A DNA stretch of 64,000 nucleotides from assembly GCA_023150875.1 (NCBI GenBank), contig JAKLKC010000031.1, forward strand, positions 1 to 64,000, written 5' to 3'. The notes under the pieces are model-generated. The model had not been told where the DNA came from and searched no databases. It saw only the letters and a program-made list of their open reading frames with translations. The stretch comes from Myxococcota bacterium. Its GTDB lineage: Bacteria; Myxococcota_A; UBA796; UBA9615; JAKLKC01. Each line of letters starts with the position of its first letter. Positions within the stretch are counted from its first letter, which is position 1. A program made the translations under genes and the position numbers. This document shows, piece after piece, positions 10,350-14,801 of this stretch.

Positions 10350-12176
10350 ATGCCTCGGAACTCCTCCGTGCGCCTGGCGCTGGGCCTCGGCGCGGCGTCC
10401 ACGCTGCCCTTCCTGGGCTGCGGCCCCGACGTCCAGATCACCTCCCAGACGGGCGTCCTGGAGATCTCCCCGAACCTCATCGACTTCGGGGCGATCGCGT
10501 CGGGCACCGAGGCGACCGAGACGGTGAACCTCGACAACACGAGCCCGGACGTCTCCCTGGAGGTGCTCAGCGTGGCCCTCCAGGGCGCCGACGCCGGGAG
10601 CTTCACCATCGTCGAGGGGGGGTTCAGCGGGCGCATCGAGGCGTCCTCGGCGATGCCCCTGAGCATCGCCTTCCACCCCACCACCCTCGGCTTCCTCATG
10701 GCGGAGCTGGTGGTGACCACGGAGGGGAGCGAGGGCAACACGGTCTCCACCATCGACGTGCGCGGCGAGTCCGTGGACGGAGGCCTCCAGGTCTACCCGC
10801 GCGTCGTCGACTTCGGCCCCGTGGACGTCGGGGACTCCGAGGAGGCGGCGGTCATCATCGAGAACCCGACGTCCATCCCCATCGTGATCGACGAGATCGA
10901 CTTCTCGGGGGACGACGGCTTCGACTACGACGCCCCAAGCTACCTCGGCAACCTGCCCTGGACCGTCGATCCCGGTGACCGGATCGACATCGACGTCGCC
11001 TTCGAGGCGGACGGTACGGACCCCGCGTCGGCCGGCCTGACGCTCCTGGGGTCCACCTTCGACGCCATCGACGTCACCCTGCTGGCGAACACCTGCGAGG
11101 GCTCCGCCCACGGCGGGTGGGACCAGGACGGCGACGGGTACCAGACCTGCGGCGGGGACTGCGACGACGGGGACGAGGACGTCTTCCCCGGCGCGGCGGA
11201 GGTGTACGACTCCATCGACAACGACTGCGACGGCATCGTCGACGAGGGCACCGTCGGCTACGACGACGACGGCGACGGGCAGAGCGAGCTCGGTGGAGAC
11301 TGCAACGACGGCGACGCCAGCACTTCCACGGGCGCCGAGGAGATCGCCGACGGCCGGGACAACGACTGCGACGGCGACGTCGACGAGGGCACCGAGAACG
11401 ACGACGGGGACAACGACGGCTACACCGGCGCCGGTGGGGACTGCGACGACGCCGACGCCAACGTCCACCCCGGCATGCCCGAGGACGGCGGCACGGGGAC
11501 CAACCAGGGGGACGGTCTCGACAACGACTGCGACGGGTACGTGGACGAGGGCACCACCGCGTTCGACGACGACGGCGACGGTTACTGCGAGGAGGGCCCC
11601 GTGTGCGTCGGAGGCGCCGATCCCGGCGACTGCAACGACGCCGATCCCGCGGTCTACCCCTCGGCGCCGGAGACCGCCGACGGCAAGGACAACGACTGCG
11701 ACGGCATCGTCGACGACGGCTCGCCGGGGGTGGACGACGACCACGACGGGTACTCGGAGCTGGGGGGTGACTGCGACGACGGCGACAACGACACCTACCC
11801 GGGGGCGCCGGAGCTGCCCGACGGGATCGACCAGGACTGCGACGGCATTGTCGACGAGGGGACGACGGCCTACGACGACGACGGCGATGGCTTCGCCGAA
11901 GCGGGCGGGGACTGCAACGACGGGGACGCCACGATCTACCCCAACGCCGACGAGGACGGGGGGACGGGGACCGACGAGGGAGACGGCCGGGACAACGACT
12001 GCGACGGCATCATCGACGAGCGCACCCTCGACTACGACGACGACGAGGACGGGGTCACCGAGTCCGCCGGAGACTGCAACGACTACGACCCCGACATCTC
12101 CCCCGCCACCATCGAGGTCCCGGGGAACTTCATCGACGACGACTGCGACGGCGAGATCGACGAGTACGGTTTCTGA
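10350..12176 (+). CDS. Lipoprotein with ASH domains and seven MopE metal-binding repeats
   Basis: A 608-residue exported lipoprotein. The signal peptide ends with LPFLGC, a lipobox with the acylated Cys about residue 24. Residues 30-250 form two ASH/choice-of-anchor-D Ig-like domains (ISPNLIDFGAI and VYPRVVDFGPV are their first strands). The rest, from about 255, is seven 45-55-residue repeats of the MopE type (DDDGDG, GDCDDGD, a Pro-Gly pair, DNDCDGIVDEG), each with paired Cys and a Ca- or Cu-binding-like Asp cluster. The start has GGAGG at the right spacing. Such proteins are usually displayed on the outer membrane surface. The extreme Asp content makes it strongly acidic. The bound metal cannot be told from sequence. 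Confidence 0.88.
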   Translation: MPRNSSVRLALGLGAASTLPFLGCGPDVQITSQTGVLEISPNLIDFGAIASGTEATETVNLDNTSPDVSLEVLSVALQGADAGSFTIVEGGFSGRIEASSAMPLSIAFHPTTLGFLMAELVVTTEGSEGNTVSTIDVRGESVDGGLQVYPRVVDFGPVDVGDSEEAAVIIENPTSIPIVIDEIDFSGDDGFDYDAPSYLGNLPWTVDPGDRIDIDVAFEADGTDPASAGLTLLGSTFDAIDVTLLANTCEGSAHGGWDQDGDGYQTCGGDCDDGDEDVFPGAAEVYDSIDNDCDGIVDEGTVGYDDDGDGQSELGGDCNDGDASTSTGAEEIADGRDNDCDGDVDEGTENDDGDNDGYTGAGGDCDDADANVHPGMPEDGGTGTNQGDGLDNDCDGYVDEGTTAFDDDGDGYCEEGPVCVGGADPGDCNDADPAVYPSAPETADGKDNDCDGIVDDGSPGVDDDHDGYSELGGDCDDGDNDTYPGAPELPDGIDQDCDGIVDEGTTAYDDDGDGFAEAGGDCNDGDATIYPNADEDGGTGTDEGDGRDNDCDGIIDERTLDYDDDEDGVTESAGDCNDYDPDISPATIEVPGNFIDDDCDGEIDEYGF

Positions 12177-12304: not shown

Positions 12305-13258
12305 GTGGGGAGTGGAGATGGCCTGCCGAAGGAGACGGGAGGGTTGACCTCGGTCGTCGTCGTGGGTGGAGGGCCCGCCGGCCTCGCCGCGGCGATCTGG
12401 GGCGACCGGCTCGGCCTCGCCACGGACGTTCTGGACGCCGGAGAGCGGCCGGGGGGCCAGCTCCTCCACCTCCGCTCCCCGATCCCCGACTACCCCGGCT
12501 TCCCCGACGGGACGGGGCCCGGGCTCGCCGAGGCCCTCGCCGCCCACGCCTGCAGGGGGTCCTCCCGCATCCACACGCGGGCCGAGGTCGTGGGGATCGA
12601 CGTGGCCCGGCGCGAGGTCGTCCTGGCGGACGGGCGCGTCTTCCGGGGGGATGGGCTGCTGCTGGCCATGGGGTGCGAGGTCCGCCGGCTGGGCGTACGC
12701 GGGGAGGAGCGGCTGGGGGATCGGGGCGTGAGCTGGTCCGCGCCCCAGGACGCCCACCGCCTCCGGGGGCAGTCGGCGGTGGTCGTGGGGGGTGGCGACA
12801 GCGCGTTCGAGAGCGCCCTGGTGCTCGCGGACGCCTGCCGAGAAGTGTCGCTGGTGCATCGGGGAGGCGCCTTCCGCGCCCGGGCCGACTTCGTGCGCCC
12901 CGTGTTGGAGCACCCGCGGATCCGGACGTCCACCCGGACCGAGGTGCTGGAGATCGAGGGGGACGGGAGCGTCGAGGCCGTGCGGCTCCGGAGGCTGCCC
13001 GGGGAAGTCCCCTTCCGCGTGCCCTGCGACGCGGTCTTCATCCGGATCGGCGTGCGCCCGCGCAGCGAGCTCGTCGCGGCCCAGGTGGCGCTGGACGCGG
13101 GGGGATACGTGCTGGTGGACCACGACCAGGGCGTGGGGATCGGTGCGTGGGCCGCGGGGGACCTCTGCACCCCGGAGGCGAGCTCCGTGTCCGCCGCGGT
13201 CGGCCAGGCCATGGTGGCGATGAAGAGGGCCCAGATCCGAGCGCTCTCCGGGGCGTGA
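12305..13258 (+). CDS. Thioredoxin-reductase-like FAD/NAD(P) oxidoreductase lacking CxxC
   Basis: A 317-residue flavoprotein of the low-molecular-weight thioredoxin reductase fold. The N-terminal FAD Rossmann motif is VVVVGGGPAGLAAAI, with GERPGGQLLHL in the FAD-binding region. The second nucleotide site is VVVGGGDSAFESAL, and AAGDLCTPEASSVSAAVGQA closes the FAD domain. In true thioredoxin reductases a redox CATC pair precedes the second Rossmann motif; here the aligned segment reads SWSAPQDAH, so disulfide exchange with thioredoxin is not expected. A ferredoxin/flavodoxin-NAD(P) reductase-like role is a better guess. The usual HRR motif of NADPH-specific enzymes is HRG. TTG 12344, preceded by a purine-rich stretch, is an alternative start. 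It lies about 200 bases upstream of the encapsulin locus and could supply electrons to it, which is speculation. Confidence 0.8.
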   Translation: MGSGDGLPKETGGLTSVVVVGGGPAGLAAAIWGDRLGLATDVLDAGERPGGQLLHLRSPIPDYPGFPDGTGPGLAEALAAHACRGSSRIHTRAEVVGIDVARREVVLADGRVFRGDGLLLAMGCEVRRLGVRGEERLGDRGVSWSAPQDAHRLRGQSAVVVGGGDSAFESALVLADACREVSLVHRGGAFRARADFVRPVLEHPRIRTSTRTEVLEIEGDGSVEAVRLRRLPGEVPFRVPCDAVFIRIGVRPRSELVAAQVALDAGGYVLVDHDQGVGIGAWAAGDLCTPEASSVSAAVGQAMVAMKRAQIRALSGA

Positions 13259-13365: not shown

Positions 13366-13394
13366 TTGACCGCACTCGTCGCCGCTTCGATGAT
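13366..13394 (+). promoter_or_regulatory. Candidate promoter of the encapsulin operon
   Basis: TTGACC (13366-13371), a 17-base spacer and GATGAT (13389-13394) stand about 70 bases before the first gene of the encapsulin pair. The -35 is good and the -10 is moderate. Confidence 0.4.
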
Positions 13395-13465: not shown

Positions 13466-13912
13466 ATGGAAGACCTGTTGGCGATCGCTCGGGAGTTCAA
13501 CCGGACCCTGGAGGGGCTAACCGCTGGCCTCGCCTCGGGCGCCGGTCCCGCCCCCGAGGCCCGCGGCCGGGCCCAGGCCGAGGTGCGCTCCCTCGCCCAG
13601 CGGCTGGACACCCTGCGGGGCACGACGGCGGCGGAGGCGGAGGGCGACGTGCGGCGGGTCTCCGATCACCTCGGCCTCGCCCTGGACCTCCTCACCCACG
13701 CGGACGTGGTGCCGGGCCTGGCCAGCCGCCTGCTGGGGCACGTCCTCGAGGAGCAGTGGGAGATCGTGTCTCACCTGGAGAGGCGGGGCCCCGGGCCTTC
13801 CCCTGCCGGAGCGGGAGCGGCGGCGGGTGGGCCGGGCTCCGGCCCCCGGCCCGGTGGGGGGCGCCCGAGCGAGGTCAACCCCCTGACGGTGGGCGAGCTG
13901 ATCGGTCGCTGA
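13466..13912 (+). CDS. Putative encapsulin cargo protein with C-terminal loading peptide
   Basis: A 148-residue protein of unrecognised family with three parts. Residues 1-107 are predicted helical, with two helices at about 59-80 and 84-107. Residues 108-135 are a Gly/Pro/Ala-rich flexible linker. The end, NPLTVGELIGR, matches the LTVGSL-type cargo-loading peptide by which native cargo binds the inner face of family 1 encapsulin shells. The shell gene begins 58 bases downstream on the same strand, which makes cargo identity very likely. The helical core has His and acidic residues (H68, D74, H78, H92, E95, E96, E99, H103) spaced so that a metal site is conceivable, loosely like encapsulated ferritin helices, but I cannot assign it to ferritin, peroxidase or hemerythrin families. 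No cysteines are present. ATG 13466 is the first start in frame. Confidence 0.82.
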   Translation: MEDLLAIAREFNRTLEGLTAGLASGAGPAPEARGRAQAEVRSLAQRLDTLRGTTAAEAEGDVRRVSDHLGLALDLLTHADVVPGLASRLLGHVLEEQWEIVSHLERRGPGPSPAGAGAAAGGPGSGPRPGGGRPSEVNPLTVGELIGR

Positions 13913-13970
13913 TCGCGGCACATGTGCGGCATGCGGCGCGTGGACGATGGACGCGCCAGGAAGGGAAGTG

Positions 13971-14801
13971 ATGAACGACTTCACGAATCCCCTGCTCGAC
14001 TGGCAGTGGGAAGAGATCAAGCGCGAGGTGGTGGAGGAGATCGCCCGGACCCTGGTGGGGAGGCGCTTCATCCACATCTGGGGCCCCCTCAAGCCGGGGC
14101 TCCAGTACCTCAAGACTGGCCGCTTCGCCAGGGACAACATGGGCGAGATGGGCATGGTCAGCGACTTCGATCCCGCCGCCAGCCACCCCGAGCGGGAGGA
14201 CCTGCTGCCGGTCCCGATGATCTACAAGGACTTCATCTACCACTTCCGGGACATCCACTACGCGCGGGAGCACGGGATCCCCGTCGATCCCACCGTCGCC
14301 ATCCGCGCCGCCCACTTCTGCGCCGACTCCGAGGACCACCTGATCTTCAACGGCAACGCGGCGTTCCGCCAGGAGGGGCTGCTCACCGTCGAGGGGCGCA
14401 ACCGCGTCGAGAGGGGGGACTGGACCCGTTTCGGCCAGGCCTACCGCGACGTGACCCGGGCCATCGAGATCCTCCTGAACAAGAACCTCCACGGCCCCTT
14501 CGCCCTGGTGGTCTCGCCCCGGATCTACTTCCAACTCGCCCAGGCCCACGAGGCGGCCCCCGTGCTGGAGCTGGACACCATCGGGCGGCTCTGCACCGCC
14601 GGGGTGTTCCAGAGCCCGGTGATCCCCGACGCCACCGCGGTCCTCGTGAGCACCGGCAAGCAGAACTTCGACCTGGCCGTCACCCAGGACGCCAGCGTCA
14701 CCTACATGCCGCCGGTGAACATGAACCACCCCTTCCGGGTGCACGAGTCCCTGGCCCTGCGGATCAAGAGGCCCGAGGCCATCTGCACCTTCGAGACCTG
14801 A
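13971..14801 (+). CDS. Encapsulin shell protein (family 1, linocin M18/HK97 fold)
   Basis: A 276-residue encapsulin, the self-assembling shell subunit that forms an icosahedral protein compartment in the cytoplasm. The length matches the 260-290 residues of family 1. Family features in order are an N-terminal helix (NPLLDWQWEEIKREVVEEIA) that lines the lumen and helps bind cargo peptides, RRFIHIWGPLKPG, the CADSEDHLIFNGNAAF segment matching the AEDxxIFxG core, EGLLTVEGRNRVERGDW, and C-terminal strands around DLAVTQDASVTYM. ATG 13971 has AGGAAGGGAAG upstream; ATG 13947 is possible but less conserved. The preceding gene carries the matching cargo peptide. Regulation may involve the palindrome cluster just after the stop. 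Confidence 0.93.
   Translation: MNDFTNPLLDWQWEEIKREVVEEIARTLVGRRFIHIWGPLKPGLQYLKTGRFARDNMGEMGMVSDFDPAASHPEREDLLPVPMIYKDFIYHFRDIHYAREHGIPVDPTVAIRAAHFCADSEDHLIFNGNAAFRQEGLLTVEGRNRVERGDWTRFGQAYRDVTRAIEILLNKNLHGPFALVVSPRIYFQLAQAHEAAPVLELDTIGRLCTAGVFQSPVIPDATAVLVSTGKQNFDLAVTQDASVTYMPPVNMNHPFRVHESLALRIKRPEAICTFET

Follow-up and report, generated by a model that had tools for sequence, protein, structure and literature searches.

A predicted tandem-hairpin cargo beside a family 1 encapsulin shell gene of a Myxococcota bacterium

Targeting peptides have been described for the encapsulins that most resemble the system treated here. The M. xanthus peptide is PLTVGSLRRGG, in which replacement of Ser by Ala caused the smallest loss of loading among three mutants tested (PMC7925596), and the peptide of IMEF systems is TVGSLI (PMC11202242). 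M. xanthus also has EncD, a tagged flavin-binding ferric reductase cargo whose family can release iron, and the ligands of the ferroxidase EncFtn are E32, E62, and H65 (PMC11202242). After the main survey of 2021, 90 family 1 systems still had no cargo assigned to them (PMC8346489). Some of the encapsulins that lack a known cargo type would be explained by a coherent clade of shells that has a small cargo family of its own.

The locus lies in a window of 64,000 nucleotides (the whole stretch of DNA that was analyzed) from contig JAKLKC010000031.1 of a Myxococcota bacterium. Its features are as follows.

12305 to 13258, + strand: neighboring gene, encoding a thioredoxin-reductase-like flavoprotein that lacks the CxxC pair (SAPQ in place of CATC)
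13366 to 13394, + strand: promoter-like sequence upstream of the cargo gene (TTGACC-17-GATGAT), a pattern match only
13466 to 13912, + strand: cargo gene with ATG start, 148 aa, predicted divergent tandem-hairpin (group D) cargo
13469 to 13618, + strand: first helical hairpin, residues 2-51 (AlphaFold2 helices 2-22 and 30-51; column table)
13631 to 13786, + strand: second helical hairpin, residues 56-107 (AlphaFold2 helices 56-77 and 83-107; alignments)
13787 to 13876, + strand: Gly/Pro/Ala-rich linker, residues 108-137, predicted to be disordered (pLDDT mostly about 45-55)
13877 to 13909, + strand: putative C-terminal targeting peptide NPLTVGELIGR, from its likeness to the M. xanthus and IMEF peptides
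13971 to 14801, + strand: gene for the family 1 encapsulin shell protein (276 aa), which groups with the shells that have hairpin cargo

The shell protein matches NCBIfam encap_f1 (1.2e-68, 231 bits, cut-off 100) and Pfam Linocin_M18 (1.4e-53, 182 bits, cut-off 24.3), both above the curated cut-offs, which makes it an HK97-type shell and confirms the first-pass annotation of this gene as a family 1 encapsulin. Its closest relative in the PDB is M. xanthus EncA (1e-66). The cargo ORF lies 58 bp upstream on the same strand and is itself preceded, by about 72 bp, by the promoter-like site, a pattern which shuffled sequences did not yield. Further upstream, the flavoprotein is possibly a ferredoxin or flavin reductase. 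A tblastn search with this gene found no match in the other loci, and it was therefore rejected as part of the system; its membership is doubtful. Beyond it, at about 10353-12176, lies the gene of a large protein, probably calcium-binding and secreted, whose Asp-rich repeats read DGDGDGY..CDD..DND(C)DG.

The cargo ORF has GC contents of 0.83, 0.58, and 0.91 at the three codon positions, resembling its neighbors, and so has the composition of a real gene. In the AlphaFold2 model the protein has four helices with a core pLDDT of about 90; the linker after them is disordered, and a further short helix lies at the tag. The first-pass annotation had described a tagged gene in front of the shell with a Gly/Pro linker before the tag, and both statements held: the protein ends in NPLTVGELIGR after a linker that is disordered in the model, which is the arrangement of a family 1 cargo with its C-terminal targeting peptide behind a flexible linker. 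The specificity of such tags was counted among ORFs of at least 60 aa from the window and the encapsulin loci collected by then. The motif [LIVF]T[VIL]GxL ended 52 of these 6,420 ORFs; all 52 were cargo ORFs, and nearly all directly adjoined a shell gene. Moreover, a GC-rich codon pattern for [LVIFM][TS]VGxL occurs at 39 sites in the 6.9-Mb genome of the window. Just two of these are in the reading frame and no more than 30 codons from a stop, namely those of the window cargo and flagellar FliP. Judged by these counts, the tag of the window cargo is more than a chance occurrence. The FliP-like membrane protein (L191, G000:C136, - strand) has the C-terminus NLTVGSLVRGFGP, which imitates an encapsulin tag, so that searches for tags can be expected to pick it up falsely. 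The window tag carries Glu at the GSL position where the known peptides carry Ser. This substitution is unusual, not prohibitive, because the Ala mutant of the M. xanthus peptide loses the least loading.

The core itself gave no match above cut-off against Pfam, NCBIfam, or the PDB, in line with the earlier remark that it resembles no described cargo. Foldseek searches of the PDB with this model and with that of a second protein of the same layout, the group D cargo of locus L044, returned generic matches only and none at E 1e-3 or better. The proposal of an unrecognized cargo was therefore right as far as curated families are concerned, but the protein is not unique, and appears to be a degenerate member of a family of tandem-hairpin proteins.

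This family emerged when shells were gathered from the phylum and from a large genome collection and their neighboring genes were read. The window shell used alone as a query found nothing in the genome collection, and an alignment of shells was needed. The closest shells carry two tagged and mutually related cargo types, termed groups C and D. Group C proteins are single α-hairpins with invariant EH, DxGM, and H-x3-EE motifs, found in Planctomycetota, Sandaracinaceae, and other Myxococcales and often bearing two tags; two tandem C-terminal targeting peptides were seen in seven cargos encoded upstream of the shell (L008, L009, L010, L034, L037, L041, and L047). Group D proteins carry a tandem double hairpin in one chain and come from Obscuribacterales/Melainabacteria and one deltaproteobacterial MAG. 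Since both halves of group D align to group C (90% and 88% alignment probability), group D is read as a duplicated hairpin. Five melainabacterial members encoded upstream of their shells (L062, L076, L084, L098, and L103) have long His/Gly-rich linkers followed by a WTVGPxW tag. The conserved columns of group D are mostly His, Glu, and Asn, partly spaced i, i+4, and these columns, together with the His-rich linkers of the five proteins, suggest a metal. No tested member of either group reached a Pfam or NCBIfam cut-off, and no description of a hairpin cargo family was found in the open-access papers searched. The shell family and the tagging principle are known, and the hairpin cargo family is without a Pfam or NCBIfam model. 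From the loci collected, it appears to be common to related shells in several phyla. Related shells in Acidobacteriota (L043 and L049) and Armatimonadota (L035) had no tagged neighbor that could be recognized; their cargo may be encoded elsewhere or be of an unfamiliar type.

Several comparisons place the window cargo with group D. A group D profile built with the window excluded scored 19.9 bits against the window core (E 8e-4), where the best of 20,000 shuffles reached 12.4. In hhalign the alignment covered residues 3-105, and thus both hairpins, with a score of 28.3 against a maximum of 20.8 for 500 shuffles and 13.9 for the reversed sequence. The hhalign probability was 45%, which makes the window cargo a distant relative of group D. 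The best credible pairwise match, by tblastn, was the L044 cargo (36% over 64 aa, E 3e-5). Group C alone was considered as the nearest relative and rejected, as group D fits better. A search of 70 other genomes from the class of the host gave no credible homologue; two candidates (L003 and L005) were rejected for their differing alignments and the lack of an adjoining shell, and the L003 match was weak after composition correction.

The conserved residues are distributed unevenly over the two hairpins. In the first, the window cargo has R9, E10, T14, a gap, E39, V40, and L43 where the family has H, N, H, H, E, E, and N. In the second, five of the six conserved His/Glu residues are kept (H68, H92, E95, E96, and E99), as is the D67-H68 pair, while H104 of the family reference is replaced by Q97. 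The first-pass annotation had listed H68, H78, H92, E95, E96, E99, and H103 in a helical core; the residues and the four helices are there, but the conservation of His and Glu holds for the second hairpin only. With one of seven positions kept in its first hairpin, the protein can at most be a degenerate member of group D, and a divergent or degenerate tandem-hairpin protein is what the alignments predict. Because the His/Glu set of the first hairpin is mostly lost, a single chain is unlikely to contain a complete metal centre.

A tree of the shells, built without cargo data and thus independent of the cargo comparison, placed the window shell in one clade with all group C and D shells (support 100/98). 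This clade is sister to the IMEF shells (support 84/78). The window shell sits on a long branch, and therefore its exact place in the tree is unsure.

The genome of the window has a single family 1 shell. It also encodes a complete EncFtn on another contig, far from the shell (L157:1465-1869, equal to G000:C33:100837-101241), which matches TIGR04535 at 7.2e-40, above cut-off, and ends in TPPSVGSLIDDSHLPPGTAR with the tag-like tail PSVGSLID. The only family 1 shell of the genome can presumably also receive this EncFtn from elsewhere, and of the two proteins EncFtn seems the more likely ferroxidase. In two further genomes (G683 and G708) the tagged D protein is encoded away from the shell, which adjoins an EncB-like ferroxidase, so that with the window genome three genomes hold a D-type cargo together with a canonical tagged ferroxidase.

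From this, it may be inferred that the window cargo handles metal or iron. The two genes would form an encapsulin nanocompartment with an operon-linked cargo, whose tandem hairpins would fold into a four-helix bundle, with the disordered linker and the LTVGEL peptide holding it to the inner wall of the shell. The shell would store iron or a similar metal, and ferrous iron would be oxidized by the EncFtn encoded elsewhere, which is assigned to this shell because the genome has no other family 1 shell for it to enter. The window protein would bind metal at the mineral or at the inner surface through its H68/H92/E95/E96/E99 face, acting alone or as a homodimer that pairs two second hairpins. The description in which the shell stores iron, EncFtn acts as the ferroxidase, and the window protein is a metal-binding partner is given an even chance of being right.

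The main rival to a metal-binding partner is a ferric reductase. EncD is a helical hairpin dimer, and the hairpin family could likewise consist of flavin-containing, NAD(P)H-dependent enzymes that release iron. Group D would then be a fused EncD-type dimer, the window cargo the reductase, and EncFtn the oxidase. The ferroxidase partnership in three genomes fits such a complementary role, and a flavoprotein reductase gene lies upstream of the window cargo. Moreover, the group C protein of L047 matched the NCBIfam EncD model (NF058680) at 1.7e-4 over 89 residues and others at 0.025-0.08, but all these scores, some of which include the shared tag, are far under the 120-bit cut-off, the best group C protein reaching 22 bits. 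The window protein and the group D proteins tested gave no match to the model, and the conserved residues are His and Glu, as is typical of metal sites. A reductase of this kind is therefore considered unlikely.

Slightly less favor is given to the window cargo as a member of the ferritin-like superfamily with di-iron ferroxidase activity, its site lying between two chains as in EncFtn. The spacing E-x24-H-x3-EE-x2-H of planctomycetal group C proteins equals, on a reading of the sequences, that of E32, H57, E61/E62, and H65 in EncFtn; group C also aligned to an EncB-type profile at 62% in hhalign, and designed di-iron proteins gave weak matches in sequence. The window core, however, scored at most 0.3% against EncB, EncFtn, and IMEF, matched none of their curated models, and lacks the final histidine of the ExxH ligands, and the genome has a canonical EncFtn in trans. 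It is similarly improbable that the window protein is loaded yet no longer binds metal, being a structural filler, an assembly helper, or the product of a decaying gene. The loss of nearly all conserved residues from the first hairpin, the long shell branch, and the missing homologues within the class would agree with this, but the coding signature and the tag are intact, five of six residues of the second hairpin are kept, and the four-helix model is confident. Curated models, together with comparison of profiles, led to the rejection of hemerythrin, EncFtn, EncB, and IMEF as identities of the core, hemerythrin (PF01814, with its H-HxxxE-HxxxH-HxxxxD motif) giving no Pfam match and 0.2% in hhalign.

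Groups C and D could together be a new cargo class that evolved jointly with a shell clade of its own in Planctomycetota, Myxococcota, and Melainabacteria. In the tandem form, the two fused hairpins would make a redox or metal centre working opposite a separate ferroxidase inside one shell, one cargo oxidizing and storing, the other reducing and releasing; as a whole this proposal is speculative and rather improbable. Hairpin cargos would offer engineers tagged modules of very small size, and the family would permit a direct test of the release of stored iron from encapsulins.

Compared with known systems, the window cargo shares with the hemerythrin cargos of Actinobacteria a four-helix, His/Glu-bearing, and shell-linked character (PMC8346489), but the profile match is 0.2% for the window protein and 2.9% for group D, and loop lengths and motif order differ. 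EncFtn (TIGR04535/PF22277) is likewise a tagged helical cargo, with a ligand spacing shared by group C, whereas the window core reaches 0.1% against the EncFtn profile, has two tandem hairpins per chain, and lacks the ExxH motif. The M. xanthus system of EncA, EncB, EncC, and EncD provides the nearest PDB shell and a tag, PLTVGSLRRGG, close to the PLTVGELIGR of the window; its several cargos and its iron function are both counted as likenesses. In contrast, the operon cargo of the window is not EncB or EncC and has no EncD-model match, and the shell falls in another clade. The IMEF cargo of Firmicutes, of about 200 aa, forms a family of its own (TIGR04536) without a match to the window core, but these encapsulins resemble the window system in their sister shell clade, their TVGSLI tag, and a helical metal cargo that adjoins the shell.
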